NCBI GenBank assembly: GCA_032622095.1 | Contig: CP136065.1 | Location: 204,052,618-204,116,617, forward strand | Length of the DNA stretch: 64,000 bases | Origin: Siphonodentalium dalli | Taxonomy: Eukaryota; Mollusca; Scaphopoda; Gadilida; Siphonodentaliidae | Reading direction: 5' to 3' | In this document: piece after piece, positions 7,784 through 40,435 of the stretch | How the letters are laid out: the number at the start of each line of letters is the position of its first letter | Numbering within the stretch: the stretch's first letter is position 1 | The notes under the pieces: model-generated | Told to the model about the DNA's origin: nothing | Database searches by the model: none | The model's input: only the letters and a program-made list of their open reading frames with translations | Program-made: the position numbers and the translations under genes

Positions 7784-7815
7784 GATAAGAACAGATAGTA
7801 GAACAGATACTACAC
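7784..7815 (-). ncRNA. U2 snRNA fragment between Keno-1 and element B
   Basis: Read on the minus strand, this is AGTGTAGTATCTGTTC followed by TACTATCTGTTCTTATC. It corresponds to U2 nt 30-45 and then about nt 34-50 again, a short tandem repeat of the target. Keno-1's A-tail joins on one side and element B's 5' end on the other. The rest of the U2 3' domain is absent here, so the gene copy is destroyed. Confidence 0.82.
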
Positions 7816-8102
7816 TTTTTTTTTTTTTTTATAAAAAGTTTATTAAGGAATAATAATGAATCAAGGTTTCGGTACAAATGGAAAGAATATAACAACATAG
7901 CAAAATGGAAATAATGTATGGTATATAAAGAAAAGGAATAGAAAGCCGACAACCTGCCAGCACCGCACCGACCCCCGCTCCGAATAAAAACAGACGAATC
8001 TGCGTTATCACAGGCTGGAGCGAGGATCGTATGAAACAAAAAGAGTTGGGCAATATTAATAACCCTCCCAACTCCCCACGAAATATGAAAGAAAGAAAAA
8101 CA

Positions 8103-8162
8103 GAGTTATCAATCCTGCATCCCGGAGACGCAAGGGTCTCCACAATGCAGGAAGGATAACTC
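8103..8162 (-). other. Conserved 60-nt hairpin in Keno-1 3' UTR
   Basis: GAGTTATC at one end pairs with GATAACTC at the other. Inside, CCTGCAT pairs with ATGCAGG and GGAGA pairs with TCTCC. Equivalent hairpins of the same length occur in Keno-2 (twice) and Keno-3. A partial second repeat starts just after it (near 8177). In other LINEs 3' UTR stem-loops are recognised by the element's own RT; that role here is inference. Confidence 0.7.
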
Positions 8163-8201
8163 CACTGAAAAGTAAACAGAGTTATCTTCTAAAGGTGCAC
8201 T

Positions 8202-11200
8202 CTAGAATGTGAATTCCACTTTGCCGTTCGAAATCCGACAGATATCAGTTGTTACCAACCAATACCGGTCGAACTCCGAACGGTGGAGGCGCGCGTAATC
8301 AGCGAGGATACAAATTTTAAGGCGATTTAAATAATCCACAATAAGTTTATTAGAATGAGTCGTGCCTTTGTGAAACTTTGCTTCATTGCGAAAGTACCAA
8401 ATGGTGCTGATGGCTTCAGTCAGAAGCACGAGAATTGTGGCTTTGTGATGCCTGTCGAGATTCAGAGGTAGTTGCAAAAAGCGAACAATTTTGGCTAGGG
8501 GTTTAATCTCTGATTTGGGCAGTAAGTTATTGGCCCACTGAAAAATTAGCCGCCACAATGGTTGAACATGTGGACAAAAACAAAATAAGTGTTCGCGACG
8601 TCTGTCCGACAAAGGGGGCATAATTTATATGGCTGTATTTTCAAATAATGCAAAAGTTGATTAACAGGTAAGATATCATGAGCCAACTTCCAAATGTCAC
8701 GCCGTGCAATGGGACCGATAAAGGGATTGTGTAAATTATTCCAAGTTAAGTTAAACTGAATAGTAGGGTATCTGTTAATAACAATTGGGGACTTGACAAT
8801 TTTACTTAGAAAATCCAAGTAGAATTGTTTGGTAGTAAAGTTGTCGAAATGAAAATCGGGGCGAATTGTCAGATATTTCCTAAGGGCTGCCAGAACTTTG
8901 GTATAAAATGGGAATTGAAAGAACATAAATAGGCTGCAGAAAGGGGAATAATAGAACAATAGTACCATAATTTGGATAAAGCATATGTATTAACAAGGGC
9001 GGTACGGGAGAAGGGGGTCAATTTTCGATCAAAAGAATTTTGTAGTACGCCCGAAAATTTGGAAAGGAGATTGTGAAAGTGACCATCTAGACTAATGTCA
9101 TTGCCATATTGAATTCCGAGAAGTTTTTGATGAGAGACCCATTTTAAGCCATGTGGCGTGTCTGTGCGGTCTCTCCAAGAGCCTAAAAATATACCGGCTG
9201 ATTTGTTTAAATTTAACTTAGCTCCGGATGCTTTACCAAAAAGTGTGCAATTAGATAATATATGTTCCATAGAGTTGTCATTAGTGACTATCGTGGTGAC
9301 GTCGTCCGCATACGCAGCTACCCAAAATCTACCCAAAATCTGCGTATCCGAACGGAATTTAATCTAAAGGGGCTCAAGACAAAGGCCATACACAAGCGGG
9401 GAAATACTGCAGCCTTGACGTACTGATCGAGTGACGGGGAAAGGGTCGGAAATAAACTGGTTTACAATAACAGACGAAGTGATGTTACTGTAAAAAAGTT
9501 TAATCCATGAAATAAATTTGGGGTGAACCCGTATGCAGAAAGGGCGCGAAAAAGGTATGTGTGATCCACTCTGTCAAAAGCTTTAGCTTGATCAAGGGAA
9601 ATAAGGGCACACCGAATATTTTTATTATTTACGTAATCAATGAGATTGCGTAAAAGATGGGCATTGTCTAAAATGGACCTTCCGGGAATGCCGCAAGTTT
9701 GGTCAGAGTGCACTAAAGTGCCAATGACGTCCCGGAGGCGGTTTGTGAAAAATTTTGAAAGAATTTTATAGTCATAGTTCAATAAACTGATGGGGCGATA
9801 ATTTGAAACGAGTTCAGGGTGCTGGGGGTCTTTGAGAAGTAAAACAATAAGGGACTGTCGCTGCGAGGCAGACAGTTGACCTGAAAGGAAACAGTGATTA
9901 TATAAATGATGTAGGATGGGCGCGATATAGTCAAGAAAAGTAAAATAAAATTCCTTGCCTAACCCATCGCTACCAGGGGATTTATTATTTTTCATCTGGG
10001 AAACCGCAGTTTTAATTTCATCTATAGAAATGGGGGAATCACATAAGGATTTATCAGAGGGCGATATTTGGGGTAAATCATGTAAAAAGTCCGAACAAGC
10101 GGAATCATCAATGGCCTCGGCAGTAAACAGGTCTGAATAAAATTCCCGAAATTTAGTTAAAATATCATGTGAATCGGTACAAGTATTGTCATTTACGGTA
10201 ACCAAAGAGATAGTTTTCCTGGAACCACGATGGTGCTCCATCCGATGGAAGTGCGAAGAAGTGGATTCCTGAGAATCCAACTCCTGCGCACGACATCGGA
10301 TGAAGGACCCGTGCTCCAGTTCCAAATATAATTCATGGAGCTTTTGGCAAAATGCCGAGATTTGCTCTGAATAATTTCCGGGATTAAATTTTTCCATTGT
10401 ACATAAATTAAAATACTGCTGTTCGAGATCACGGATTACGGATTTATTGGAATTGGAAAGCCGTTTGCTATGAGTAATTACGAAGGACTTTATCTTCTTC
10501 TTGATCCCCTCCCACCAATCAGACGTGACCGCATCAGCGGCCACGCCCGACGTGAGAGAAGACCAAAAAGAGAGAAAGGCCTCCTGAAAAGTTTCATCTT
10601 GAAATATTTTAACATTGGCCTTCCAATAACCGCGACCGAATGACTGGCAATTAAATTTTTTAATTGTAAATGAAATAGCATCGTGGTCGGATATGCATCC
10701 GACGATTTGTTTAAAGGCATGAATAGATGTTAACAGGGACTCAGAGACATAGCACCGGTCAAGCCGAGAAGCACTATGCCCCCGAGTCCATGTAAATTGC
10801 GTTGCTGTGGGTTCCTGTTGACAAAATACATGTTTGAGTTTGAATTTGTCACGTAAACTTGCCCACTTCCGGGACACAGGAAGGACCCGGTCATGACCAA
10901 TTCGATCGAGCGACACATCATCCACGAAATTAAAATCGCCCCCGATAATAATCGGGCGAATACAAACCAAATGAGGTATCACTCGATCGAAAAAGTCACG
11001 ACGGGGTCCACCGCTATTATTAGGGGCATAAACATTAATGAGGCGAAGTAATTGGTCATCGAGTAAAATATCCAATACGACCATGCGGCCGTCGGTGTCA
11101 TAAAAGAATTTGTCAATCTGAATATCTAAATGAGGAGAAATTAAAATAGCCGCACCACGGGCGGAATTCGTACCATAAGAGTAATGGCCCTTCATATCAA

Positions 11201-11366
11201 GATTAGAATTAAGTGAGTCGGCTTCAAGTTTGCCTAAAATGTGAGTCTCTTGTAAAAATATAATGTCGATTGAATTGAAACGAACAAGCATTTTCAAAAG
11301 GCGCTGTTTCTGAGAACTGCCCAGGCCATTGCAGTTAAGTGATGCGATATTTAGGTTCGCCATCAT
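8202..11366 (-). pseudogene. ORF2: APE endonuclease / reverse transcriptase of Keno-1
   Basis: Opens with MMANLNIASLNCNGLG at 11366. The first 634 codons (to 9462) are continuous: endonuclease with QETHI, GGDFNFVDD and SDHDAISF, then RT blocks NKSPGSDGLGKEFY, NYRPISLLNYDYK, DQTCGIPGRSI and DQAKAFDRVDHTYLF. After a frameshift the AAYADDVTTIV active site lies near 9310. The C-terminal part is in two further frames and ends in CPLCRTD, with the downstream His/Cys partly lost, at 8202. The deletion near 8908 removes about 88 codons between RT and knuckle. Upstream of the start there is a structured leader, which suggests non-standard initiation of ORF2. Confidence 0.9.
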
Positions 11367-11538
11367 GACAGTTAGTTTACCCTACAATAACCCACAGCAA
11401 CAAAAATGAAAGGAAAAATGCCATAAATTGGGGTAGCGCGGCCGCCAACCACGTGGACCGATGAACCGCGGCGTACCGATGCGCATCGACCCACGCAGAA
11501 AGCCCCCGCGCCAACCACAACAAACACTTAAAGTGCAG

Positions 11539-11568
11539 GGTCATAGAGAGCGTTGCTCTCTGATGACC
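11539..11568 (-). other. Inter-ORF hairpin, copy a, Keno-1
   Basis: A 30-nt near-perfect hairpin. The outer stem is GGTCAT/ATGACC, the inner stem AGAGAGC/GCTCTCT, with a three-base loop and one bulged base. Homologous hairpins in Keno-2 and Keno-3 keep the pairing with different bases. Confidence 0.65.
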
Positions 11569-11813
11569 AACGTTGAAATGAGACAAAAAGCGCGGACAGC
11601 ACATCGCCATACCCGGACGAGCAGAGTGCAGTCTAAAACGGCCACACTCTGATCGACCAAGCACGTCGACACACCGTCCACGAACAATACAAAATACAGA
11701 GAACAATGAGACAGTGCGACAACGATGCCGGTCAGCCAGCGAAACGCGGATTACCGGTGTACGATAGCCGCTCGACAAAGTCGTCACACTGTCAACAAAG
11801 TATAAAATTGCAA

Positions 11814-11843
11814 GGTCGCCGAGTGCGATACACTCTGGCGACC
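11814..11843 (-). other. Inter-ORF hairpin, copy b, Keno-1
   Basis: GGTCGCC pairs with GGCGACC and GAGTG with CACTC around a five-base loop. It sits about 275 bp from copy a inside a two-unit tandem duplication of the leader. Confidence 0.65.
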
Positions 11844-12108
11844 CAGCACTGCGGACACAAAGAAAAATAACACTGAGTGGCCAGCGCGGCGACAAACTCG
11901 ATCGCGCAGAGAACAGCCTAAATCGGCCGTAATCTGAGCGATCGCGAATGTCGACACACTGTCCACCCACAACAATACATACATAAAAACACATAAAGAG
12001 AAATCCAGGGACGGTCCAAGTTCGGGGTGGGGGTCGTTGGAGAAAACACAAAGTCCGGTTGAACAGGTCCACAGGTCGAGAAATAGTTCGTTGTATCTTC
12101 ATGAAGAG

Positions 12109-13514
12109 TTATTCCAAGGACGGCGACACCATCGAATGCCCCGATGCTGCGTCAGAGTCAACAGACAAGTACTGCTCCTCGTTGGGAGATGTACATAACC
12201 TCTGATTTGCCTGGTTGTTATAGCCATCCGACGACTCCACATCATCCGAATCATGAAATCTTTTGAGGGAAGGTCTCGCATCGTCCATCGGATCATCAAA
12301 CAAATCCTTCTGTGTGTCGTCAGGCGAACCTGACGCAGGGACAGTAGGTTGCGGACCAGGATGGGTGACGTCCTCCGAGTCAAAAGGCACAAAGAGCCCC
12401 TCCACCGTCGCGGAGGATATCACCTCCGGATTGGGCGAAGGGGGAGATTTACTCCCCTGTTTCGCAACAGAGTCCTCTGTTGGAGGGGCAGGGGGTGCTC
12501 CCGGAGCGACAACTGGAGACCGGGTCTCCAATGAGGGGTCCCCCGGCGGGGGGATCTCTGGCGGGGGTTCCCGCTGCATCTCCTGCCGGGCAAGAGGGTT
12601 CGAATCGGACAGAGACGTATCGAGCTCCCTCGCCGTCCCGGTGGATATCTCCACCCGAGAAGACGAGGGGGAGGCTGACCTCCCTGCGCCCCAGCAGAGT
12701 CCTCTGCTGGTGCGGTATGGTTAGCACCCTTCGGACCTGACTTCGGTGGAAGGTTCCACCTCGGAAGTACCAAATTAAAGTCCTCGTTAACAGCAGATGC
12801 GTATGTACGAATAGGTCTGCTAAGCACACCAGCCGCCTGGAACTCCGACTGCTCCGCTCGCCGCTGTTGAACACGCTTGGGGCAATCGGGATCCCGGCTC
12901 ATGTGCCCAACGTTTTTACACGCGAAGCACAAGGGCGGCCTGCCCGGAATGAGCAGCGGGCAAATCTGGCCCCTCCCCATGTCGATATAGGCCGGCATGC
13001 GCTGTAAGGCACTGTAAGTTAATTTCATCACGGCCTCCTTCTTCCCGTTTGCATAATGTCGGCCCTCCACCGCATCATATTTGTCAACAAGAGTCATGAC
13101 TGGTCCAAATCTTTTTAAAAATTTTAAGATCGATTCGGTCGACATATGGTACGGAACCCAAAAAATTTGAATGGTTACTGTCTGCTCAAAGAAAGGCTTC
13201 ATTGTAAACACAACACCAGAGTCAAATGTATGAGAAGAACTACCAATTGCAAATTGATCTTTATACTGCTCGAAGTACTGGTCATGAGTAAAAGTTACGT
13301 ACCAGATGTCCGCCCTCTGCAATCTATAAAACGCCGAAATAGTAGTGACATCCACAATCAAAAAACGAAAATAGGCAACCATCTGTTTCGTGGTCAGCAT
13401 TCTCGATCCCGGCCCGGACACACGAATCTCCAAAGTCCGGGCCGCCCGATCTTCATTTACATCATTGTCGCCATGGCGACGTCCCTGGCGGACCAAACAA
13501 ACAGCAATCAGCAA
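12109..13514 (-). pseudogene. ORF1: zinc-knuckle protein of Keno-1
   Basis: The reading frame from 13514 lacks a suitable ATG at the family position. The homologous start (MA..NEDRA in Keno-2) is shifted by one base near 13475. Conserved parts are NEDRAARTLEIRV, a middle IFWVPYHMSTESILKFLKRFG block, and the knuckle CFACKNVGHMSRDPDC near residue 195. A frameshift within the Pro/Ser-rich tail moves the C-terminus (ending near 12109) into a second frame. This is the RNA-binding partner of ORF2 in the element's RNP. Confidence 0.82.
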
Positions 13515-13537
13515 TCAAAATAAATCAAAACTAGCCC

Positions 13538-13547
13538 TTTGAGTTTA
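13538..13547 (-). ncRNA. U2 snRNA 5' part, small downstream piece
   Basis: Continues U2 nt 22-31 after the 5' piece at 14675-14698 (minus strand: TAA then ACTCAAAG). It was separated from that piece when the fold-back element inserted. The TTA at 13545-13547 is that element's target duplication. Confidence 0.6.
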
Positions 13548-14674
13548 TAGTTAGGGAGCCCGCATATGTTCTATTTACACTTTTGCGTACAAAAGGTTTG
13601 ACCCCCTAAAGTTGGTACCAATAATGGAACATTCTGAAAAACCGATTTCTTAAGTTGCGCATTCCTGGGGTTTAGGGGCCGCTGAACCCCAAAAAGTGCC
13701 AAAAATCACTTCTATTTACACTTCCGTGTACATCGATGAATTTTGGTTTGATGATACTCCTAAGTGTACTGATTAAGAAAACACAACTTAAGAAAGGGAT
13801 TTTCCTGGGGTTTTCAGATAAGAAAGGGTGTCCCATGCTGAACCCCAAAACGTGATTTTTCACTTTTTTTTATACTTTCGCGTACATCCATAATTTTTGG
13901 TCTCAAAGTACTTTGATATATACTAATTATAAAAACACAACTTAAGAAGCAACATTTGTATACATTTTACTAGATTTTCCGCTATAATTTTCATAAAACT
14001 GGCTCACTTATAGTTCTAGAAAATGGATCGGGTTGGGGGGGGGGGGGGGGGGTAACAAGTCTCGTTCTTATCAGAAAACGACATGAATATATATTTCTTA
14101 AGTTGATCGTATCGATTTAGGGATGTATTGGTTGTAATAGTGCAACGTTCCAGGGGTGTACGCACATACACACACGTTGGACGAATGCAATCATGTAAAT
14201 AAAAGTGATTTTTTACGTTTTGGGGGGTGACCCGATGACCCCCTTCTTATCTTAAAAGCCCAGGAAAAGTTGCTTCTTAAGTTGTGTTTTTATAATTAGT
14301 ATATATCAAAGTACTTTGAGACCAAAAATTATGGATGTACGCGAAAGTATAAAAAAAAGTGAAAAATCACGTTTTGGGGTTCAGCATGGGACCCACTTTC
14401 TTATCTGAAAACCCCAGGAAAATCCCTTTCTTACGTTGTGTTTTCTTTATCGGTACACTTAGGAGTATCATCAAACCAAAATTCATCGATGTACGCGGAA
14501 GTGTAAATAGAAGTGATTTTTGGCACTTTTGGGGGTTCAGCGGCCCCTAAACCCCAGGAATGCGCAACTTAAGAAATCGGTTTTTCAGAATGTTCCATTA
14601 TTGGTACCAACTTTAGGGGGTCAAACCTTTTGTACGCAAAAGTGTAAATGGAACATATGCGGGCTCCCTAACTA
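13548..14674. mobile_element. Fold-back DNA element with 406-bp inverted arms and TTA target duplication
   Basis: The left arm 13548-13953 and the right arm 14269-14674 are near-identical in inverse orientation. Each begins TAGTTAGGGAGCCCGCATATG-like at the outer end (outermost 8 bases TAGTTAGG). The 315-bp core includes an 18-G tract near 14036. TTA flanks both ends (13545-13547, 14675-14677), which fits the TWA target duplications of PIF/Harbinger. There is no coding capacity, so it is non-autonomous. Assignment to Harbinger rests on the 3-bp duplication only. Its ends were not found beside the transposase at 56 kb. Confidence 0.78.
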
Positions 14675-14698
14675 TTAGCCAAAAGGCCGAGAAGCGAT
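14675..14698 (-). ncRNA. U2 snRNA gene copy 1, 5' end
   Basis: Minus strand starts ATCGCTTCTCGGCC and runs through TTTTGGCTAA, matching human U2 nt 1-24 base for base. The gene then meets the fold-back element and Keno-1. The 3' domain of this copy is missing. Confidence 0.9.
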
Positions 14699-15282
14699 GC
14701 CGATTTTTCGCGGAAAAAAATCGGGCCATTCAGCAGGAACCGTCGAGAAAATGGTTTTAATAAAAGGTGTGTCATCAAATCCCAGGAATCGACATGAATC
14801 TTGAAAAAGAAAGAAATATGCATGAGAAGCGAAAATGGCGAAATTCCGGTGTTTTGCATGAAGCATGTGTTCGGATTTTGTTACAATTAGAATAAACACA
14901 AGAATTTCGTCATTTTTTTTCGTGACTCCATTTGAGACGTACGACGTACGTTCTTCTGACTCTATTTAATACTGTACTGTTGATCCATTATAAGCTCATC
15001 GAGTCGTGCAAACCAAAATGTTGCGAAAGATGCTGAATGTCGCGAAATCTGAACCTTACTTTTTTGCAATAGTTTTCTTTGCATTTGTGAAATTACATTA
15101 AGGGTGATTTAGAATAAACGTTGTTCATTGTAATATGAATGCAATGCAAACGCTCTTTATCAACAATGTGTGGTATCTGTTCTTATCAGCATGACATCTA
15201 AACATTCGAAATGAAACTCTGTTCCATGTCAGAAGGTACAGAGAGGTTGGGGAGGGGCAACTAATTTTAGATTATTTAAGAA
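14699..15282 (-). promoter_or_regulatory. U2 array spacer 1, including U2 upstream region
   Basis: About 0.58 kb between the 5' end of U2 copy 1 and the 3' end of copy 2. It is nearly identical to 21399-21995, 27737-28321 and 39918-40435. It must contain the U2 promoter (snRNA PSE/DSE), but I cannot place those boxes with confidence. Directly upstream of U2 there is a small inverted repeat (CGATTTTTCGCGGAAAAAAATCG on the plus strand, here 14700-14723 broadly). A sense-strand copy of the U2 target motif lies at 15167-15190. Confidence 0.7.
15167..15190 (+). repeat. Inverted U2-like target motif in spacer 1
   Basis: TGTGTGGTATCTGTTCTTAT then CAGC on the plus strand resembles U2 nt 30-53 in the opposite orientation to the array. 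It is present in all four spacers. Confidence 0.65.
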
Positions 15283-15402
15283 TGGGCCGATCCCGGAGGT
15301 ACTGCAATACCGGGCCAACCCGTGGCGAGGTTAGAGCAAGCTCTAGGCCACTCGCCTACAGTCAAAAATCAGATATTAAGCTGATGAGAACAGATAATAC
15401 AC
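15283..15402 (-). ncRNA. U2 snRNA gene copy 2, 3' part, with internal deletion
   Basis: Begins after Keno-2's A-tail with AGTGTATTATCTG (nt 30 on) and ends near TCGGCCCA. The Sm-like ATTTTTGA, the CTTGCTCTAACC segment and the GGTATTGCAGTACCTCC loop are clear. Compared with copy 3 it lacks about 34 nt covering stem-loop IIb between two ATCTGAT/ACTGAT-type repeats, and has G-to-T in the branch-point recognition region. Confidence 0.88.
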
Positions 15403-15688
15403 TTTTTTTTTTTTATAAAATGTTTATTAAGGAATAATAATGAATTATGGTATCGGTACAAATGTGAAAAATATAACAAGAAAGCAAAATGGTAATAATG
15501 TATGGTATAGAATGAAAAGGAATAGAAAGCCGACAACCGGCCAGCACCGCACCGACCCTCGCCCCGAATAAAAACAGACGAATCTGCGGTATCACAGGCC
15601 TGGAGCGAGGATCGTACGAAACAAAAAGAGTTGAGCAATAATAATTGCCCACCCAACTCCCCACGAAAAATGAAAGGAAAGAAAAACA

Positions 15689-15748
15689 GAGTTATCAATC
15701 CGGCATCCCGGAGACTCAAAGGTCACCACGATGCAGGAAGGATAACTC
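15689..15748 (-). other. 3' UTR hairpin, first copy, Keno-2
   Basis: 60 nt, closed by GAGTTATC/GATAACTC. It has one unpaired change in the CCGGCAT arm. Same fold as in Keno-1 and Keno-3. Confidence 0.65.
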
Positions 15749-15764
15749 CACTGAAAAGTAAACA

Positions 15765-15824
15765 GAGTTATCAATCCTGCATCCCGGAGACTCAAAGGCC
15801 TCCACGATGCAGGAAGGATAACTC
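15765..15824 (-). other. 3' UTR hairpin, second tandem copy, Keno-2
   Basis: Identical length and closing stem. Separated from the first copy by a 16-bp linker also present after the Keno-1 hairpin. The unit of about 76 bp has been tandemly duplicated. Confidence 0.65.
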
Positions 15825-15836
15825 CAAAGGTGCACT

Positions 15837-18800
15837 CTAGAATGTGAATTCCACTTTGCCGTTCGAAATCCGACAGATATCAGTTGTTACCAACCAATAC
15901 CGGTCGAACTCCGAACGGTGGAGGCGCGAGTAATCCGTCAGGATGCGAATCTTTAAACGATTCAAAAAGTCTACTATCAGTTTGTTGGAATGGGTCGTAC
16001 CTTTGTAAAATTTCGCCTCGTTGCGGAAATACCAAATGGTGCTAATAGCTTCCGTCAGAAGGACGAGAATCGTAGCTTTGTGATGCCTGTCAAGATTCGG
16101 GGGCAATTGCAAAAACCGCACAATGTTTGCGAGGGGTTTAATTTCCGATTTGGGCTGTAAATTATTGGCCCACTGAAAAATTAGCCGCCATAATGGTTGA
16201 ACTCGGGCACAAAGACAAATAGATGTTGGTGAGATTCGACATCTGTACGACAAAGGGGGCATAATTTATAAGGCTGTATTTTCAAATAATGTAAAAGTTG
16301 ATTTACAGGTAAAATATCATGTGCTAACTTCCAAATGTCTCTCCTTGCAACGGGACCGATAAAGGGGTGGTGTATATTGTTCCAAGTTACGTTAAACTGA
16401 ATATCAGGGTATCTGTTAATAACAATGGGGGACTTAACAATTTTACCTAGAAAATCCAAGTAAAATTGTTTGGTAGTGAAACTGTCAAAATTAAAATCGG
16501 GGCGAATTATCAGATATTTCCTAAGGGGTGCGAGCACCTTGGTATAAAATGGGGGAGGTTGTTCAGAACAATGGGGAATCAAATTGGTGCGGAGTTCAGG
16601 TTTAAAACAAATTAGTGATAAGCCGATCCAATATGTAACAAAGCAACCCCATCGGATATTGGGGAATTTCATGTATCGTTGAAGATGTTGCATATAAAAT
16701 GCATCTAATTTGGAAGGAATATGAGAAAGCCCCGTTCCGGCCCGCAGTTTGCTTTCGCAAACCGTGAGGCGGGACAGGGGTTCCTGCTTATTCTCCCAAA
16801 TGAATTTGTACATCTTGGAATTGAAAGAACATAAATAGGCTGCAGAAAGGGGAATAATAGAACAATAGTACCATAATTTGGATAAAGCATATGTATTAAC
16901 AAGGACGGTGCGGGAGAAGGGAGTCAATTTTCTATCAAACGAATTTTGGAGTACGCCCGAAAATTTGGAAAGAAGATTATGAAAATGACCATCTAGGGAA
17001 ATATCATTACCATATTGAATGCCTAAAAGTTTTTGATGAGAGACCCATTTTCAGCCATGTGGCGTGTCTGCGGTCTCTCCAGGAGCCTAAAAATATACCG
17101 GCTGATTTGTTCAGATTTAATTTTGCACCGGAAGCTTTACCAAAAAGGGTGCAATTAGCGAAGATATGTTCTATAGAAATGTCATTTGTGACTATCGTAG
17201 TGACGTCATCCGCATACGCAGCTAGCTTTATCGGTTCAGTGGAACACTGAACCGACAAACCCAAAATCTGCGTATCCGAACGGAATTTGATCAAGAGGGG
17301 TTCTAAACATAGGACGTACAAAAGTGGAGAAATACTGCAGCTTTGGCGTACAGATCGTGTAACGGGAAAAGGGTCAGAAAGAAATTGATTGACAATAACG
17401 GATGAAGTAATGTTGGTATAAAATAGCGTGATCCAGGAAATGAAAGAGGGGCCGAAACCATAAGCCGAAAGGGCACGAAAAAGATAAGTGTGGTCAACGC
17501 GATCGAAAGCTTTAGCTTGGTCAAGTGAAATCAGGGCACACCGAATATTTTTGTTATTTACGTAATCAATGAGATTATGTAATAGATGAGCATTATCTAA
17601 AATTGACCGACCGGGAACGCCGCAAGTTTGGTCAGAGTGCACTAAAGTGCCGATGACGTCCCGGAGGCGGTTTGTGAAAAATTTTGAAAGTATTTTGTAA
17701 TCGTAATTCAATAAACTAATTGGCCTGTAATTAGAAACAAGTTCGGGGTGCTGGGGGTCTTTAAGGAGTAAAACAATAAGGGACTGTCGCTGCGAGGCAG
17801 ACAGTTGACCTGAAAGGAAACAGTGATTATATAAATGATGTAGGATGGGCGCGATATAATCAAGAAAAGTAAAATAAAATTCCTTGCCTAACCCATCGCT
17901 ACCGGGTGATTTATTATTTTTCATCTGGGAAACCGCAGTTTTAATTTCATCGATAGAAATGGGGGAATCACATAAGGATTGATCAGAGGGCGATAGCTGG
18001 GGTAAATCAGATAAGAAATCCGAACAAGCGGAATCATCAATCGGCTCAGCAGTAAAAAGGTCTGAATAGAATGCCCGAAATTGAGTTAAAATGTCTTGAG
18101 AATCTGTATAATTAGTGTCAGCTACAGTTACCGAGGAAATAGTTTTCCTGGAACCACGATGGTGCTCCATCCGATGGAAGTGCGAGGAAGTGGATTCCTG
18201 AGAATCCAACTCCCGCGCACGACATCGAATGAAGGACCCGTGTTCCAGTTCCAAATATAACCCGTGGAGCTTTTGGCGCAATGCCGCAATTTGCTCAGAA
18301 TAATGACCGGGGTTAAATTTTTCTAATGTGCATAAATTAAAATACTGCTGTTCCAGATTACGAATGACAGATTTATGGGAATGGGAAAGCCGTTTACTAT
18401 GAGTAATGACGAAAGACTTTATCTTCCTTTTGACCCCCTCCCACCAATCGGACGTGACGGCATCAGCGGCCACGCCCGACGTGAGAGAAGACCAAAAGGG
18501 GAGAAAGTCCTCCTGAAAATTTTTGGCATTGGCCTTCCAATAACCACGGCCGAAAGACTGGCAATTGAATTTTTTTATGGTGAATGAAATCGCATCATGA
18601 TCAGAAATACAACCAACAATCTGTTTAAAAGAATGAAGAGATGAAACCAAGGACTAGGAGACATAGAACCGATCGAGCCGAGAAGCACTATATCCCCGAG
18701 TCCAGGTATACTGCGTTGCTGTGGGTTCGTAATGACGAAAGACATCCTTAAGTTTAAATTTGTTACGTAAATCAGCCCATTTCCGGGACACAGGAAGGAC

Positions 18801-19277: not shown

Positions 19278-19463
19278 TAATGGTTGATATCAAACAAAAA
19301 GACACCACAGCAACGCCCACAAAAATGAAAAAATAAGCAAGGGAGAAAATTGAGGCAACGCGGGCGCAACCTTCGCCGCCCCGCGAGCGCTGGCATACCG
19401 ACGCACACGAACCAACAAAGGAGGCCCCCGCGCCAACCACAACAAACACCGATAAAAGTGCAG

Positions 19464-27636: not shown

Positions 27637-27709
27637 GGCTCCGTCCCTGGCGGTCAAACAAAAACAAAGTGCCAATCAAAAGAATTAGGTCACGTGACAA
27701 ATATCGACT

Positions 27710-30474: not shown

Positions 30475-30880
30475 TGGTGACCCGATCTGACTCTAGATAC
30501 CCACTAAGGAAACCAGAACCGCCCCTTGCAGTTGGGTAATGCCAGCAGGTAGCAGTCGGTCTGGTCCTTAGTGACTAAACCCTCTCGCGGGTTCCCCTTC
30601 CTAGTCTGCCAGCCGTCCCTGCGTCCATAGGAAACGACGTAGAAGAAAGAGAGGGCTCTAACTGATCCGCACTGAGAAGGCGGTCTTGGCTGTAGTGGCC
30701 ATAAGGCACGGATGCTCTTGGAGAGTGGAACGCGTCACTAAACCGCAAGGTAAAGGAGCGCTCAGTCGGTTCTAAACCTCACAAAAAAAGGTCACAGGTT
30801 AGATCCTGGAGAAATAGACACGCTTCTCTGGCGGGCAGGTAGGTGCAAGACCCGCGCTGACCGTTTGGCTGACAAAGAAT

Positions 30881-30897
30881 CTGACAAGAACAGATAC
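30881..30897 (-). ncRNA. U2 snRNA gene copy 4, middle fragment
   Basis: GTATCTGTTCTTGTCAG on the minus strand, U2 nt 36-52. It lies between the 3' end of element D and the 5' end of family A copy C. An imperfect repeat (TTCTTTGTCAG) follows at 30869-30880. Confidence 0.82.
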
Positions 30898-33648
30898 TTT
30901 AACGACTCAGTAATGGTCCTCTAGCTCACGGGACCACAAACCAGTAACAAAGACAGTGACGGAGAACTGGTGGTAAATAAGTGGTGAACGAGCAAACGAT
31001 GGAACCTGATCATCATAGTCGCTGGACCCTTCAAAATACTGAAAAAGAAATGAAAAAGTGGGCTCTTGGCCTCTTTACGGGTCATCTTTTCAACAAAAAA
31101 AAAACGGGGTGTACCTTTAATGAAAATGAAATTAATACCACAGTCATAAATATACAATACAAGAGAAATGCGAGAATCATAAGAATGAGCATAGGGAAAA
31201 TAAACAACAAGTAAGTAGAAATAAGGTAAGTACAGATCAAGATAAGCAAAGGTAAAATATAGCAATAGAACGTGGTCAAGAAAGCATGAACTCAATTTTG
31301 TTATCATTATCAATTGTACAGATATCATCGTTAGATAGCCAATATAAAGCAAATGATTCTTTGGGAAGTCGGAAGAAGTCACCCAGGACGCGGACCCGGA
31401 GTCGCGATAAAAAGGAAACCACGACCGTGTCCCGTGTGACTAACTTCTTAACAAACTTTACCTCGTTCCGAAGGAACCATATCGTATGAATTGCTTCCGT
31501 AATGAGTGCTAAACTAACTGACCTTTGATTAAGGCTGAATTTAGACGAAAGTTGTAAAAATCGAATCGTTCTAGAAGAAGGGGTTGTTGAAATTTGGGGA
31601 TTTAAATTGTTGATCCACCTAAAAACTAAAAGCCAAAGTAACCTTAAAGTGGTGCAGTCTACAAACAAATGTTCTATGGTTTCAACCGAAGTTGAACACA
31701 TACAACATGTGGTGTACGACTGAATTAAAAAAAAAATTTAAAGTAAAGTTGGTTGGAAATATCTCATGAATCACTCTCCAACTTGTGGATCTATTGAACG
31801 GGTCAAGGAAATTATTGTGCAAATTTTTCCAGGTCATGTCGAAATTAATAGTTGGAGCAGACATTATACATCTGGCTGGTTTGCAAAATTGTTGCCAAAA
31901 CAAATTGTAAAATTCATGTGAAGTGACTGTATTAAATGCTATGCCACTCGTAAAACTGTTGAAGCGTTTGAATACTTCGAGACATTGCTTGTAAAATGGT
32001 GGTATGAAAAGAAAACTGTGGGGTATGGAATTGGAAGCGAAGGACGAGTCCAACTCTCTCAAAGCCATACCTATCCAATAAATTGCAAAGTATCGCCATT
32101 TGAGAGCAGGGTTAAGTAACATTCTTTGTATATGTCTAATGTGAAAAGCATCTAATCTACTCGGTAAGTGGCATAAATTCGCACCACTTTGTGATTTAAT
32201 CTGAGATACCGCAGTTCTAGCTAATGGTTCTGCTTTGATGCTCCAAAAAGATGGATAACTCTGGCGTTGCATTAAAGTAATGTAATGTTTTGGAAGAGAA
32301 ATTATCTGGCAATAGTACCATAATTTGCTACTAGCAAATACATTTATGGCTATAGCTCTCCCAAAAAGGAAAGCCGACGCTCTTTAAAGCTGTTCAATGT
32401 ACTAGTAAATTTTAAAGATAAATTATGAAAATGGTCATCATTTGTTAAATTATTCCCAAAATTAATGCCTACTATTTTTTGCTTTTGGACCCATTGAATA
32501 TTGAAAGGTTGATCTCTACGAGATTTCTGTGAACCAATAAACATGCCCGAAGTTTTATTCAACTTTAATTTTGAGCCCGATGCTTTACTGAAATGATGAC
32601 AAGTCATAAAAAGTTGCCTTATAGAATTATCGGTCATTAATATCGCTGTAACGTCATCGGCGTACGCTGTCGGCTTGACGCTCTCGGGAGTCCCCGGGAG
32701 TCTCAAACCGACAACCGCGGGATTCCGTCGAAGATTTATCAAGAATGGTTCCAAACACATGACATAAAGCAAAGGGGAAAGACTACATCCTTGTCTAACT
32801 GATCGCGTTATAGAGAATGGTTCAGAAATGAACTGATTGATTATTAAACTGGATTGTATGTCCGTGTATAAAAGTTTTACCCATTGAATAAAATTTGGTC
32901 CGAAACCAAAGGCAGAAAGCGCTTTGAACAAGTAAGCCATACTTACTTGGTCAAAGGCCTGCTGCTGGTCCAAGCTTATAAAAGCACATGGTGAGTCTTT
33001 TTGGTTAGAATAATCAATAACATTTCTAAGTAAATGAGCGTTACCCAAAATAGATCTTCCCATGACACCGCATGTTTGGTCAGGATCGATGATGGAAGAA
33101 ATTACTGCTTTCAAACGATTGGTTAACACTTTAGATAAAATTTTATAATCATAGTTCAGAAGACTGATTGGACGATAATTACCATGTTCTTGTGGCTTAT
33201 TTGGGTCTTTTCGAAGTAATATGATGAGAGACAATCTGTTATGGAGTTAAAGTTTCAGATAAAAAGCATTCGTTATAAATTTCTAAAAGATCTGAAAATA
33301 TACTGTATAAGGATTTTTCAAAGCCATCACTTCCGGGGGACTTGTTATTTTGCATATCGGAAATTGCGTCAGTTATTTCAGTTTCTAAACGTGTAAAATA
33401 TTTTGAAGGTTTTTCCTGCGATGTTATATAGCGTGCTCTTGATCTAATATAAGCTCCTTTGGATGCTTCTGTGTTTAGTTCCAATAATCGATCACGAGTT
33501 TCTTTAATTTGATCTGTGTATTGATTAGGATTACTTATTTCCGCTTTACATAATTCAAAATAAAGAGACTCAAGCTCTTTAATTTCAGAATTGCGAGTCC
33601 GAGCTTATGTTAAAGAATAACTTTGGGCGAATGAACCCATGCATTTTT

Positions 33649-35607
33649 AGCTCAACTTACTTTTGTAAGTTTGAGCTATTGCCATGGTTTGTCGTGCGTG
33701 TGTCCGTCAACAATTTCCTTTGGCGCAGGCTACAGGTTGTACCTTTGGTCTGATCTTCATGAAATTTGTCATGAATGTTGACATTGACATGTAGATAGGA
33801 ACGAGTCATTTTGGGGTCATTCGACCAAAAAACATGGCCGCTGGCAGCCATCTTGGATTTCAAGATTCAATCCATTGGCGCGGCCTACATGTCGTTCTGT
33901 TCATCTGATCATCATGAAATTTGTCATTGATTTTAATAATGACATGTAAATGGGAACGAGTGATTTTGGGGTCGTTCGGCCAAAAAACATGGCTGCCAGC
34001 AGCCATCTTGGATTTTACTGTTTGCATGACTAAATCATTTGGCGCGGGCTACAGGTCGTTGTTTTGGTCGGAAGTTTATGAAATTTCTCATGGATGTTAA
34101 CACTGTCATGTAGATGGGAACGAGTGATTTTGGAGTTGTTCGACCAAAAAACATGGCCGCCAGCAGCCATCTTGGATTTTACTCTTTGCATGACTAAATC
34201 CTTTGGCGCGGGCTACAGGTTGTACCTTTGGTCTAATCTTTATGAAATTTGTCATGAATGTTGACATTGACATGTAGATGGGAACGAACCATTGTGGGGT
34301 CATTCGGCCAAAAAACATGGCCGCTGGCGGCCATCTTAGATTTCAAAATTCAATCCATTGGCGCGGGCTACAGGTCGTACTGTTCGTCTGATCATCATGA
34401 AATTTGTCATGGATGTTAATATTGACATGTAGATGGGAACGAGTCATTTTGGGGTTGTTCGGCCAATAAACATGGCCACCAGCAGCCATCTTGGATTTTA
34501 CTCTTTGCATGACTAAATCCTTGGGCGCGTGCTACAGGTCGTAGCTTCGATCGGAACATCATGAAATTTGTCATGGATATTAACAATGACATGTAGATGG
34601 GAACGAGTGATTTTGGGGTTGTTCGGCCAATAAACATGGCCACCAGCAGCCATCTTGGATTTTACTCTTTGCATGACTAAATCCTTTGGCGCGGGCTACA
34701 GGTCGTAGCTTTGATCGGAACATCATGAAATTTGTCATGGATGTTAACAATGACATGTAGATGGGAACGAGTGATTTTGGGGTCGTTCGGCCGAAAAACA
34801 TGGCCGCCAGCAGCCATCTTGGATTTTACTCTTTGCATGACTAAATCCTTTGGTGCGGGCTACAGGTCGTAGCTTTGGTCAGATGGTCATGAAATTTGTC
34901 ATGAATTATAACAATGACATGTAGATGGGAACGAGTCGTTTTGGGGTCATTCGGTCAAAAAACATGGCCACCAGCATTTTACTCTTTGCATGACTAAATC
35001 GTTTGGCGTGGGCTACAGGTCATACCTTTGGTCTGATCTTTATTAAATTTGTCAAGGATGTTAACACTGACATGTAGATGGGAACGAGTGATTTTGGAGT
35101 CGTTCGGCCCAAAAACATGGCCGCCAGCAGCCATCTTGGATTTTACTCTTTGCATGACTAAATCCTTTGGCACGGGCTACAGGTTGTACCTTTGGTCTAA
35201 TCTTTATGAAATTTGTCATGAATGTTGACATTGACATGTAGATGGGAACGAATCATTGTGGGGTCATTCGGCCAAAAAACATGGCTGCCAGCGGCCATCT
35301 TGGATTTCAAAATTCAATCCATTGGCGTGGTCTACAGGTCGTACTGTTCGTCTGATCATCAAGAAATTTGTAGGTCGTAGCTTTGGTCAGATCTTCATAA
35401 AATTTGTCATGGATGTTAACAATTATACGTAGATGGGAACGAGTTCTTTTGGGGTCGATTGGCCAAAAAAAATTGCCACCAGCAGCCATCTTGTATTTTA
35501 CTCTTTGCATCACTAAATCCTTTGGCGCAGGTTAGACATTTCAATTAGCACCTTTCCTGTTCCATTTACTGTCAACCATTAAATTATTCCCCTACCTAAG
35601 TTGAGCT
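33649..35607. mobile_element. Tandem-repeat (Helentron-like) non-autonomous element
   Basis: Ends are inverted: AGCTCAACTTA at 33649 and TAAGTTGAGCT ending at 35607. Just inside the left end TAAGTTTGAGCT forms a hairpin with the terminus, so on the minus strand the element finishes in a hairpin followed by CTAA. Between lie about 12 imperfect tandem units of roughly 155 bp, each with a 'gcgggctacaggtcgta', 'gacatgtagatgggaacgag' and 'catggccgccagcagccat' segment. The hairpin end plus central repeats resembles Helentron-derived elements (DINE-1/pearl type). That class is inference. It interrupts ORF2 of element D. Confidence 0.65.
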
Positions 35608-35986
35608 ACAGTGTCATTGACACTTTCATTTGACATATTCCCACCATTCTGAAACCGTGGGAAAATTGTGCACGATAAGATAAATATATTGGCCAAAATT
35701 CTTTGAAATTCAATTGAAAATTAGGATCTTGCAATATAGAAGAATTACATTTCCAATAACCAGGGCCGTTCACGGGAGAATTTGGAATATTAAAGGAAAA
35801 CCCGATAACATCATGGTCGGAGACTGCAGCTACATGTTGATACCAACACCGGAGCGACCCCACTAGAGAACCGGAAACATAGAAGCGATCTAAGCGCGTA
35901 CCTACGGCCCCGGATCTCCAAGTGGTCGCCACAGTGTTTGGATAATAATGCCTATAAACATCAACTAGCTTAGATTCAATAATCTG

Positions 35987-36979
35987 AGGCCTGTTTTATA
36001 CGATGTGTAATACACGTGTAACGTTAACTCGTCGTCAACACGAGTTTTTAACGTTTGATTTATATGACGTGTTAACTTTACACGTGTAATCTAGACTGGC
36101 GTCAAGGGACGTACTGATTATTCTTTCGCATTTAATTGTATTTATAACTATTTCTAAACACACTACGATTCTCACACACATTTACTACACCAATCTGACT
36201 AACTCAAAAAAAGTAAACAAATAAAGTCATGTCGTCCGCTCTAAATCATGTCGTGATATGGCCTTAGTGGCTAAAGCGACATAAAACCCCAATCAATCAA
36301 TTCGCTCTAAATCTACAACATCTTGTCCTTCTAAAACTGTTACGGATTCGCGCTGAGCGTACAAAACGCAATGGAATTCTTATGCTTTTGCGCCAAAGGG
36401 AGTTAATGTTGAGAACATTAATGTTGTCAGTATCTCAACTGAATATGCAATTGTGTGTCCATAGGGAGCAAAATCGGTCATGCCGACGCCTTCTCGAAAC
36501 CAGGGTTGGTTCGAAACAGTCAATGCCTATGGCGACAGACACTTAAAAAAAAACATTCCGAATTAGTCGGGGGACTTTTAACCATATCCTTGACAATATT
36601 TGTCGCCATCTCGTCAAGAATGAGCTCGTAGAAGACAAGTGATATCGATTTCAGTACAGCCCGACCAAAACAAGTTGTCATAACTCTTCTGAGCATGTAC
36701 GATCGCCCTGGGGCTCAAAATGGGGTGAAATATTATGCCATATTGTGTTCCGTTACTCGTGTCATACCCGTCGTATAAATCAGCGACGCGTAATTGACGA
36801 ACAGTGATGAGTTACGCGTCCAGGCCAGTTGTGTAATACGTCGACACGTGTAAGGACGAATTTCGACGAGTATCGTGGTTTTATACGACGTGTAATACAC
36901 GATCAATTGCCGACTCGCTTATTTCACCAGGAAAATAGCCATTTAAACACGTGTATCACACGTCGTATAAAACAGGCCT
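35987..36979. mobile_element. Non-autonomous TIR element inside element D ORF2
   Basis: Inverted ends of about 32 bp, AGGCCTGTTTTATACGA outermost, with GTGTAATACACGTG inside. Removing 35987-36979 rejoins the endonuclease reading (...KWKSQIIESK...). The target duplication is ambiguous (one to three bases), so I do not assign a superfamily. No coding capacity. Subterminal repeats of ACGTGT and GTGTAATAC are scattered near both ends. Confidence 0.7.
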
Positions 36980-37684
36980 GCGATTTCCATTTGGTTGTTG
37001 TTGTGATTGCGTTGTTACCGCCAATTTTATCTAAACGATTGGACATTATGAAATTAAAATCACCGCCAACTATTATTGGGAAACTCCCAACTAATAAGGG
37101 AGCAATACTTTGAAAATATGGTTTACGATTTCATTCAAGATTTGGACCATAAATATTTAATAGTCAGAATTTTTTACCATTAATAAGAATGTCAACATAT
37201 ACTGTTCTACCTTCAAAGTCATGAAAAACTTTAACTGACTCAAATTGAACTTTTTCAGAAATGACGAAGCTGACGTTCCAAATGACCAATAGGCTTTACA
37301 ATTCAGATAGTTTGAAATATATTCAGTTCTGGCTAGGGTATTGACGTGTGTTTCTTGTAAAAATAATATATCATAATTGTTGGAATTTTTTTATATATTT
37401 TAATTTGGATAATTTATTGGGGTTTCCCAAACCATTGCAATTAATGGACCCTAGTTTTAATTTATTGGCCGCCATTATATTATTGTTGAAGAGAGGAAGT
37501 AAAAATGAATGAATGTGAAAGAAAACAATAAGATAAATGAAAAAACCGAAACTGTGAGAGAGGGGGTAATTCTTGGACAATGCGCAGTCAGGTTTAGATC
37601 CATGTAGAGCAGCCATTATGTAAGAGACATTCCACTATCGTATAGGTATATTCCACCATCATACTCAGTATATCACAACAGAAA

Positions 37685-39763
37685 TTAAGAAATGATCGAT
37701 GAACTGTCTGAAAAAGGCGAGTCCATCATCTCGTCCCCCGAGGGGTACATACCTTTCGACTGTAATAACAGTTTCATCTGTGGTTCTTGGGTATCCGAGG
37801 ATTCTGATTCCAAAGATCTCTTCCGACCCTGTGTATCAAAAAGAAGTGGAGTGGTTTCAAACCCGGCGTCTGGATCCTGTGTTTGCGACACTGTAGTAAT
37901 ATCATTTTGTTTTGTTGGTGCTAGTTTCGGTGGCGAAACAATTGGTAAAACCGATGCTAGTAATTGCTGCTGTGGTCCTTCCACAACTGGTGGTTGTACT
38001 TCCTGCTGTTGTCCTTCCACAACTGGTGTTTGTAAAGTTGGGGATTTCTCGGAATCCAGGTTAGGTTGTTGTTGTTGTTGTTGTTGAGAATCAGGTTGTG
38101 GAGGTTTGTCCACAATTTGGAGTTGTGGCTTCTGCTGTGGTCGAAGTGTAGTGTATTTGTTATTTTGCACGGGATGAATTTTTTGTCGTTGTTGTAATGG
38201 TGCAGAAGTAGAAGCGGCATCTGCAAAAGATGCAGGTTTTTTCGGAAAATTCCGGGTGTTGTGGTTGACGACTGTCGCTTGACACAGTCGGCCCTATTAT
38301 GGCCGAATTCGTTGCAAAAAAGGCACATGGGGGGTCTTCCTCGAACTAGAGGTGCCACGATTATTGATTTTGATAATCGATAATCGGTTGTCAATAATCG
38401 ACTATAATCGATTAATCGTACCTAATAACTTCAGTGGAAGATTTCCGTAATATGGCCTATTGGCTGGGGGCTGGTTAAATGCACTGTCGCTGATTGTGGC
38501 ATCGGCTGATGTAATTTTTTACATTAATAAAGTGCATCATAAACCACTGTTAATGACCAATGAACACAATGTATTGAATACCACCACAGTTCTCGGCGAT
38601 GTTATGATTATAATATTTGTGAGTTCATTTGAACGAACGTTGCGATTGATTTCAGTTATGAATAGCCAAACATACAAACAATATAAAAGTAGGAAAGTTA
38701 GAAACTATAAGTTTCATCAAACATCCAGTGCGTGGTTAACAATCACAAACGTGTGCCCCCACCCGCAAATTACAGGACTTAGAACAAGTTAAGTATGATA
38801 CACAATAACCTGTATTAGTAACATCTAAGGTGACAGTCGGCACATTTCAAAGCCATAGTGCCACCTGTCAAGTTTAAATTTATATACAACGACGTCACCA
38901 TAAGTTCAAAGCTGCAGTGCCACCGATTTGTAGAATATACAATGGGCCGAAGAGTAACCATGTCGCATCATCAAATGAACTGCCGAGTGTTTGCAACATA
39001 AGTTAGTAGTACTCATGTTGTCGGAATCTCTTTGATTAAATTGATGTTGTTAACCCTTCGGTTGTAGATTAAACTGTGTAAAAGAAACACCGTATTCAAT
39101 AATACCCGGCATTTTCCAACGTCTGAAATAAATAACGCAGATTAATCGACTATGGCAATGGTAATCGATTATCGGCTTTATCAACGGTTCATCGATTATA
39201 CGATTAATCGTGGCACCCCTACCTCGAACCGTAACCAAACACTGATGATCAGCAATTAAATAATTGTATGGAATGGTATCAATATCATCAGCATTCAAAG
39301 AAAGTTTGGCTTGAATAATGACGTTCGCCACCGAAATCCATTCACTGTGCCCATTTCCTGTATCTACCTTAACTGGGGTAACATCTCGGTGCCATTCGAT
39401 AACTTTGCCGAAAGCATGGAGTGCCGCATGGATATGCCAATCATCAACATGCAACGGCAGCCAGTGAATTCTGACATCAACGGTAATTGTGTCATAATGG
39501 TCTACAGCGAACAAAATATCACGGGTGATTTGTTTTCTGTCGACAACTTCCTCGGCTTCGGATTGAGAATCAAATACAACAAAGTATTCGGAGGGCTTAG
39601 CCATCTTATAAATACCGGCTGGTTTACACTGGGGGATAATGGATCTAACAACATAAACCATATCCGCTGTTTTGATACTGTGGGCATCTCTGCCTTTCGC
39701 TTGAAACCGGACTGTGCGTTCCTTTATGTTAGTGACCGTGGCCCCTCCAAAGGTGGAGGCCAT
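37685..39763 (-). pseudogene. ORF1: zinc-knuckle protein of element D, interrupted
   Basis: Starts MASTFGGATVTNIKERTVRF at 39763. Open for about 180 residues with IHWLPLHVDDWHIHAALHAFG, then interrupted by the hAT-type element at 38347-39221 exactly at VRGR. Beyond it RGRPPMCLFCNEFGHNRADC gives the knuckle (C-x2-C-x4-H-x4-C). A frameshift then leads to a Gln/Pro-rich tail (38170-37685) with a poly-Q run and an acidic end. The Q-rich tail is unlike the other ORF1 tails here. Confidence 0.82.
38347..39221. mobile_element. Non-autonomous hAT-type element, 8-bp target duplication
   Basis: Flanked by CCTCGAAC at 38339-38346 and 39222-39229. The ends are TAGAGGTGCCACGATTA / TAATCGTGGCACCCCTA, close to the TAGGGGTG start common in hAT elements. 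Several ATAATCGATTA-type subterminal repeats lie at both ends. 875 bp and no transposase. Excising it restores the GRGRPP context of the LINE ORF1. Confidence 0.85.
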
Positions 39764-39875
39764 GGCGAAAGTAGGTCAAGCCAAGAAAAAGTTGTAAATA
39801 AAGAATTCCGACGATCAAAAGTCCAATAAAACGAGAATAATAACACAATCAAACGAAATTTTCACTAACCTTGGT

Positions 39876-39917
39876 ACAGATACACACTTTGGTCTTAGCC
39901 AAAAGACGAGAAGCGAT
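39876..39917 (-). ncRNA. U2 snRNA gene copy 4, 5' end
   Basis: 42 nt starting ATCGCTTCTCG at 39917 and ending GTGTGTATCTGT at the junction with element D. Small differences from human U2 (TCTTTTGGC, AAGACCAAAG). Confidence 0.88.
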
Positions 39918-40435
39918 GCCGATTTTTCGCGGAAAAAAAATCGGGCCATTCAGCAGGAACCGTCGAGAAAATGGTTTTAATAAAAGGTGTGCCGTCATCA
40001 AATCCCAGGAATCGACATGAATCCTGAAAAAGAAAGAAATATGCATGAGAAGCGAAAATGGCGAAATTCCGGTGTTTTGCATGAAGCATGTGTTCGGATT
40101 TTGTTAACATTAAGAATAAACACAAGAATTTCGTAATTTTTTTCGTGACTCCATTTGAGACGTACGACGTACGTTCTTCTGACTCTATTTAATACTGTAC
40201 TGTTGATCCATTATAAGCTCGTCGAGTCGTGCAAACCAAAATGTTGCGAAAGATGCTGAATGTCGCGAAATCTGAACCTTACTTTTTTGCAATAGTTTAT
40301 TTTCTTTGCATTTGTGAAATTACGTTAAGGGTGATTTAGAATAAACGTTGTTCATTGTAATATGAATGCAATGCAAACGCGCTCTATCAACAATGTGTGG
40401 TATCTGTTCTTATCAGCATGACATCTAAACATTCC
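39918..40435 (-). promoter_or_regulatory. U2 array spacer 4, truncated
   Basis: Same order as the other spacers from the U2 5' end up to '...gcatgacatctaaacattcc', then it is cut at 40435/40436 by Keno-type ORF1 sequence. The inverted U2-like motif is at 40394-40417. Confidence 0.7.

Follow-up and report, generated by a model that had tools for sequence, protein, structure and literature searches.

U2 small nuclear RNA (snRNA) genes are the target of Keno, a long interspersed nuclear element (LINE) of the Tx1 clade which encodes an apurinic/apyrimidinic endonuclease (APE) and whose published 3' flanks start with TCTGTTC (PMC6136364, PMC4640811), and of Utopia, an element of the NeSL clade encoding a restriction-like endonuclease (PMC4640811). 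Here we analyse a stretch of 64,000 nucleotides (nt) from the scaphopod Siphonodentalium dalli (contig CP136065.1, hereafter C5; C5:204052618-204116617), called the window, within the 2.23 Gb and 9 contigs of the genome searched. The window holds a run of U2 genes broken by LINEs, and we consider it probable that a U2 array has been invaded repeatedly by APE-type LINEs of the L1 group, which open U2 at fixed places, make their RNA from the U2 promoter and find a look-alike site in U1 snRNA genes.

U2 parts in the window were located by cmscan and by blastn using the genome's own U2. The search with the Rfam covariance model gave two matches above the gathering score of 46 (129.9 and 82.6 bits) and two below it (30.3 and 26.7), and blastn resolved the window U2s into four 5' parts (5' ends at 14698, 21398, 27736 and 39917) and three 3' parts (3' domains ending at 15277, 21990 and 28316), all on the minus strand. 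The coordinates and the common orientation given in the original prediction were thus right, as was its description of homologous spacers of about 0.6 kb (578, 591 and 579 bp, the other two being 96.5% and 92.0% identical to the 591-bp one). The minus-strand elements it had described were also confirmed: APE and reverse transcriptase (RT) domains lie in minus-strand open reading frames (ORFs), with Pfam Exo_endo_phos and RVT_1 at 5078-6805 (lineage E) and 9462-11366 (lineage I). The best PDB matches were human L1 ORF2p and L1 endonucleases, and the endonuclease matched only L1-type enzymes and exonuclease III. A run of consecutive units invaded by site-specific LINEs in U2 orientation is likewise supported. 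The claim that a LINE splits every copy holds for most of them; however, the copy at 28316-28379 was rearranged rather than cleanly split, since it retains only nt 129-192 and has no poly(A) junction, and the direct interrupter at 14675 is a 1.1-kb fold-back element that landed in a U2 copy already split by a LINE. Beyond the four copies noted earlier, a fifth scrap (nt 29-47) lies at 7800-7818 between LINEs of different lineages, so that at 7784-7818 the tail of a lineage I element and, beyond the U2 scrap, the 5' end of a lineage E element share one U2. The stretch 7784-7800 duplicates U2 nt ~36-46 of the adjacent scrap, and other lineage E copies share this 5' end (TTCTTATC). The features are as follows.

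637-2812, minus strand: lineage G LINE piece, 82-86% identical to L127 (see below), inside the insert starting at 7783
5078-7783, minus strand: lineage E LINE; ORF1 with CCHC knuckle from 7179, APE and RT start at 5078-6805
7784-7800, minus strand: degenerate U2 nt ~35-52, 5' end of the lineage E LINE (read from the sequence)
7800-7818, minus strand: U2 nt 29-47 scrap, between the LINE D poly(A) and the lineage E LINE
7818-13546, minus strand: LINE D (lineage I); ORF1 13514-12420, APE and RT start at 11366-9462, poly(A) end at 7818
13547-14675, no strand: fold-back DNA element, 411-bp arms 97.8% complementary, TA at its ends
14675-14698, minus strand: U2 nt 1-24, 5' part
14699-15276, minus strand: U2 array spacer of the 'GGC' type, 578 bp
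15277-15405, minus strand: U2 nt 29-192 with an internal deletion, following the LINE C poly(A)
15406-21376, minus strand: LINE C (lineage I), 84.5% identical to D, broken frames
21358-21398, minus strand: U2 nt 1-43, 5' part, one base missing
21399-21989, minus strand: U2 array spacer, 591 bp
21990-22152, minus strand: U2 nt 29-192, 99.4% identical to intact U2, following the LINE B poly(A)
22152-27712, minus strand: LINE B (lineage I), whose family B occurs in C4 U1 genes as well; 22393-24486 encodes RT and zf-RVT
27710-27736, minus strand: U2 nt 1-27, 5' part
27737-28315, minus strand: U2 array spacer, 579 bp
28316-28379, minus strand: U2 nt 129-192 only, without a poly(A) junction
28380-39895, minus strand: composite insert, containing a lineage G piece (28397-29262), an RT (32350-33234), a 164-bp tandem repeat (33716-35462) and the 5' part of a LINE (CCHC from 38325, ORF 39763-39050)
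39876-39917, minus strand: U2 nt 1-44, 5' part, one base missing
39918-40434, minus strand: partial U2 spacer of the 'GGC' type
40984-41126, minus strand: fragment of the spacer kind of an intact 920-bp array (see below), 91%

The window sits within a block of about 0.94 Mb (C5:203.817-204.757 Mb) that we term the U2 graveyard. A pattern search allowing up to three mismatches found 59 U2 3' domains genome-wide, 24 of them in this block, and after inspection of every one, none (0/24) ran into an intact U2 5' half. U2 orientation is constant across the ~0.9 Mb except for two 3' domains at the far end. The spacer between graveyard U2 halves was of the 'GGC' type in 20 out of 21 cases and differs in kind from that of a clean array about 0.5 Mb away (C5:203.2696-203.3044 Mb; 25 intact genes, 920-bp unit), although this second kind also occurs in the graveyard (L025, parts at L043-L046, and window 40984-41126). 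Genome-wide, at least 29 intact U2s score 184 bits or more, a lower bound made up of the 25 genes of the C5 array, 3 on C6 and 1 on C9. The earlier statement that no intact U2 is left therefore holds for all 24 graveyard 3' domains but not for the genome. The clean array itself contains one split U2 (L002), flanked by a 17-nt duplication (GTATCTGTTCTTATCAG), whose 1.9-kb insert ends in poly(A) and resembles lineage G in its tail (~82% over 220 nt); there is an additional lone U2 5' half at 203298864, and a run of N, either a gap or a withheld stretch, adjoins the U2 at 203289004. The host is not short of U2, its clean array being kept apart from the broken block. As each insertion destroys one U2, the units hit would fall out of use while the clean array serves the host. 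Calling the array a dead end was thus apt for the broken block, but not for the clean array with its one recent insertion, nor for the LINE B family, whose ORF2s persist open in U1 genes. Separately, L007 (C8:666300-669800) carries two U2 copies 2722 bp apart with graveyard-type upstream sequence, in which the last ~18 nt of U2 are replaced by a minisatellite. No telomere repeat was recognised at the four contig ends inspected.

The fixed places of insertion are most evident at the 3' junctions. In 20 of the 24 graveyard junctions a poly(A) is joined directly to U2, in U2 orientation, at two sites 5 nt apart. Fourteen have the poly(A) before U2 nt 32 (flank beginning GTGTAGTATCTG, up to three A being ambiguous), and all 14 carry lineage I tails (window LINEs B, C and D and relatives). 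Six have it before nt 37 (flank beginning GTATCTGTT), inside GUAGUA (nt 34-39), and these six carry tails like L127, that is, lineage G, as does L037, whose junction is ambiguous (1/24; poly(A)-rich, then TTCTGTTC). The other three (L019, L033 and window 28379) are without poly(A). L127 is an almost complete lineage G element in U2 (5' side L025, 3' side L024) with APE and RT detected by tblastn; its protein identity is just 38% with lineage I and 35% with lineage E, and the latter two are closer to each other (57% over the RT half, C5:203920240). The sole lineage E 3' junction observed (L122, on C3) is also located before nt 37, and this site is therefore common to two distant lineages. L122 (C3:200.9257 Mb) is a lineage E LINE placed head-to-tail on the poly(A) of another through a U2 scrap (GTATCCGTTCTTATC); a search of C3 for U2 3' domains at up to three mismatches found none.

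These junctions bear on the view that the locus records an ordinary Keno invasion of U2 and nothing more, which we regard as unlikely. Two features of Keno are present, namely APE and RT in ORF2 (by Pfam; in lineage G by tblastn, at 35-38% identity to lineages E and I) and insertion in U2 genes in U2 orientation, and the best PDB matches to L1 proteins agree with them. Nevertheless, the Keno 3' flank TCTGTTCTTATCAG was not matched at any clear junction (14/24 GTGTAGTATCTG and 6/24 GTATCTGTT), the junctions lying 8 or 3 nt upstream of the TCTGTTC given in the Keno reports (PMC6136364, PMC4640811). Moreover, the same family occurs in U1 genes and a U2 leader is carried outside U2, as described below. 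The identification as Keno in the original prediction was consequently not upheld as stated: because their 3' junction differs, we have not filed these elements as Keno, and it is the junction, not an RT tree, that sets them apart.

The 5' sides were profiled at 36 junctions (33 in the graveyard plus L002, L052 and L053). U2 sequence was well kept at nt 3-21 (12/684 mismatches), strongly altered at nt 22-27 (45/216; Fisher p = 1e-19) and restored in most cases at CAAAGTG (U2 nt 28-34; 39/252). Since a post-insertion decay of 0.7% cannot yield a patch with 21% of changes, the patch at nt 22-27 dates from the insertion. L025, L044, L052 and L002 are without patch, their U2 being unchanged to nt 39 or further, and L022, W21k and W39k retain U2 to nt 43, which indicates a duplication of 12-15 nt; at W21k it is the U2 at 21358-21398 that, with its 3' part, gives this target duplication.

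U2 3' parts in the graveyard differ from intact U2 at only 25 of 3373 sites (0.74%; 22 of the 24 units, leaving out L033 and the window 28379 copy). In the spacers, 242 of 10918 sites depart from the consensus (2.2%; 19 units, without L036+L015, which is deleted, and L025, which belongs to the second kind), significantly more than in the U2 halves (p = 2e-9, or p = 3e-5 with 167/9778 sites once the two most diverged spacers are removed). This lower divergence suggests that U2 was constrained or being homogenised until shortly before splitting. Only 4 pairs among 34 LINE 5' ends reach 95% over at least 120 nt. Given the youth of the U2 halves, and LINE 5' ends that for the most part have diverged too far to stem from one insertion, the sequences fit better with mainly repeated invasion than with a copied single event, though some duplicates exist; that all graveyard units are copies of one insertion is ruled out by the diversity of junctions and families. 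A milder version, in which unequal exchange or segmental duplication amplified a single invaded unit or a few of them and the run reflects copy number, seems to us improbable to a similar degree as ordinary Keno. It would account for the near-identical 5' ends (L032/L035, 99.1%; L024/L026, 97.9%; L027/W21k, 96.7%; L038/L042, 95.1%), for L049/L051, whose upstream regions are 96% identical over ~680 bp and whose LINE starts match too, and for variable patches that recur across several units. It fits poorly with the rarity of such pairs (four at 95% or more, whereas the spacers differ by 4.1% on average), with adjacent units carrying different families and two junction sites, and with the differing joints of L032 and L035.

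Family B is not confined to U2. Among the best-scoring candidates, eight matches to the whole 697-amino-acid RT half of window LINE B were found at C4:20.62-20.92 Mb (90-98% identity), 7 of them with uninterrupted frames of 1173 amino acids, and their flanks are U1 snRNA, as confirmed by Rfam. The 3' junction (marked here by a slash) reads A-run/GGCGG in 6 of the 8 (L108 being cut off by the end of the piece); in L104 it lies further inside U1, and no U1 was visible at the 3' end of the L101 sequence inspected. The copies C4:20675 and C4:20891, mutually identical, match window LINE B at 98.1% across ~1.5 kb of ORF2, their identity to a further four U2 copies being 96.3-97.6%, and in a tree they group with the U2 copies (support 90); the six further C4 copies form a subfamily at 88-90%. 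The sites are similar, U1 GATCCAAAA/GGCGG against U2 GATCAAA/GTGTA, and it would be this similarity that lets family B reach U1. U1 is mostly spared: pattern searches allowing up to 2 mismatches, with patterns not quite equal in length, found 225 places with its uninterrupted site and 285 with its 3' half (100 places listed for each). A second lineage (L097 and L118, C4:20.813-20.821 Mb) sits in U1 at the same AAAA/GGCGG site; it has an ORF2 of 1155 amino acids, 40% identical to lineage E, its U1 5' side stops after CCGTG, and no U2 head was seen on it.

The 5' ends of the C4 copies link them to U2. A U2-like head was present at 7 of the 8 family B 5' ends read: six show U1 ...CCAAAAGGC(GG) followed by the head (CTCGGACCTTTTTGCTAG...), in L065 the head comes after an element resembling a short interspersed nuclear element (SINE), and the eighth copy, L126, is 5'-truncated and begins ~490 nt inside the LINE. 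The L062 head agrees with U2 in 33 of 43 columns, a score matched by 0 of 5000 shuffles. Lineage E copies away from the U2 arrays behave similarly, L077 and L121 having exact U2 nt 37-52 as their 5' end (they have a common 5' flank and may be one event) and L119 and L123 starting with U2 nt 45-52 (L123 lies ~1 kb from L053, a displaced graveyard piece). Such U2 sequence at 5' ends outside U2 suggests that the LINE RNA apparently begins within U2, probably at the U2 promoter, and the U2 heads on the U1 copies point to the direction U2 to U1. That the heads are instead an old 5' untranslated region resembling U2 by chance or convergence appears quite unlikely: the shorter heads of L113 and L065 have no more than moderate significance (their score is equalled in 9 and 2 of 5000 shuffles), but the longest head beats 5000/5000, the match lies exactly at the 5' end and a separate lineage bears exact U2 nt 37-52 outside U2. 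An assembly artefact (collapse or misjoin) is very improbable, since, despite the N run at the clean-array unit at 203.289 Mb and the difficulty of assembling repeated units, the units can be told apart by junctions, spacer changes and LINEs, and their orientation is uniform over ~0.9 Mb bar two 3' domains.

Repeated invasion from a U2 promoter would proceed as follows. An inserted LINE would be transcribed from the U2 promoter, giving an RNA that begins with U2 sequence; APE would nick the bottom strand and the poly(A) RNA would be copied from the nick; the U2-like leader of the resulting complementary DNA would then meet the target's own upstream U2 sequence. In lineage I the product would hold nt 1-21 from the target U2, then variable sequence across nt 22-27, then a CAAAGTG supplied by the LINE itself. 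Several observations weigh against this scheme. The patch itself lacks an explanation, L032 and L035 differ in it despite 99.1% identity over 329 nt, and L050 is without it, its U2 being unchanged to nt 34. Transcription from the U2 promoter is deduced from DNA, and the graveyard sequence just upstream of U2 is, by eye, unlike that of intact genes. No RT or APE was found in the 1.9-kb insert of L002 in the clean array. Where exactly the two U1 copies branch among the U2 copies is weakly supported (60), and the tree alone would also permit the direction U1 to U2. Finally, a copy at C5:206.9 Mb has U2 nt 1-50 and ~109 bp of spacer upstream and no U2 downstream; no target duplication was found there, so a U2-started RNA is not supported for this copy, and its structure indicates that DNA-level rearrangement also moves such pieces.

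U2 heads are also found on elements of another sort. Dispersed SINE-like elements headed by U2 nt 1-~47, from +1, were read at L058 (C2:221.24 Mb; a tandem array of ~340-bp units), L065-L075 and L080, and a G precedes the head in 11 of 12 read, a sample picked by eye and thus biased. Off-target LINE copies were rejected as the source of the dispersed U2 5' ends for the 12 read outside the arrays (L065-L075 and L080; chosen by eye among 100 of the 217 U2 5'-pattern matches), as the U2 head is followed by a single kind of SINE-like body in 10 of them, by a different one in L073 and by other sequence in L068. SINEs with snRNA heads have reportedly been described by Kojima. In the window, an inverted degenerate copy of U2 nt 28-63 (83-86%) is present in 3 of the 4 graveyard spacers (15164-15199, 28203-28238 and 40391-40426) and includes the LINE target site. 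Elsewhere in the window there are an inverted repeat at 58855-59203 (158-nt arms, 97% complementary) and a hairpin at 60911-60985 matched by microRNA models below their gathering scores.

Related LINEs were also observed at histone genes. At C5:111.43-111.65 Mb relatives of these LINEs give 18 matches, most with open frames of 1224-1228 amino acids, and in 6 of 7 flanks inspected the poly(A) is joined to histone genes near the coding start (L081-L083, L085, L091 and L096, at C5:111.5, C9:143.9, C8:37.5 and C8:0.05 Mb; not all of one lineage). We take the genes to be H2A, with short starts (L081, L082), H2B (L083, L085), H4 (L091) and H1 (L096); the L085 frame is a core histone by Pfam and that of L091 matches histone-fold models, the Histone model itself being below cut-off. 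The H2B looks molluscan or lophotrochozoan. These are possibly histone-gene-specific LINEs. A 5S rRNA target for a relative at C9:179 Mb is unsupported, the 5S lying ~350 bp beyond the poly(A) and on the other strand.

A broader proposal, which we put forward tentatively as possible and no more than that, is that one LINE family lives on two spliceosomal RNA genes, its transcript from the U2 promoter being a U2-LINE chimaera that keeps a U2 leader through which the 5' end is joined to U2 by homology, with a target switch from U2 to U1 in progress at GATC(C)AAA/. Open copies would then persist in U1 while the U2 home has become a graveyard, and the wider clade would live on multicopy genes (U1, U2 and histones), a suggestion held just as tentatively. 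The locus bears on the transcription of target-specific LINEs and on how such elements come to use a new target. It can serve as a concrete case for testing promoter capture and target switching: the same family is readable in U2, its apparent former and now exhausted target, and in U1, a second and mostly intact one, with U2 sequence still attached to its 5' end. It also illustrates the loss of a whole U2 block while a clean array stays apart.

In the open-access literature searched, at the level of titles and abstract openings, no LINE specific to U1 or histone genes was found. Keno resembles the present elements in having APE and RT and in inserting in U2 slightly downstream of nt 30, destroying the gene (PMC6136364, PMC4640811); it differs in that the 3' junction here precedes TCTGTTC, by 3 nt in lineage G and by 8 nt in lineage I, and in that here one family is also in U1 and has a U2-derived leader. 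Utopia has in common the U2 target, several lineages per U2 array, tandem copies and variable 5' boundaries (PMC4640811), but it encodes a restriction-like endonuclease, whereas here APE lies upstream of RT, and the junction differs. Dada-U1 is likewise specific to U1 genes, but it is a DNA transposon with a 6-7 bp duplication, and its GCGAAT marks another place in U1 (PMC3706591). R2 also resides in a multicopy RNA gene and derives its RNA from a 28S cotranscript (PMC3414825, PMC3774820). However, R2 has a 28S target and a restriction-like endonuclease, in contrast to the U2 and U1 targets and the APE found here, and the R2 ribozyme removes the 28S part, whereas here the U2 sequence appears to stay on the RNA.

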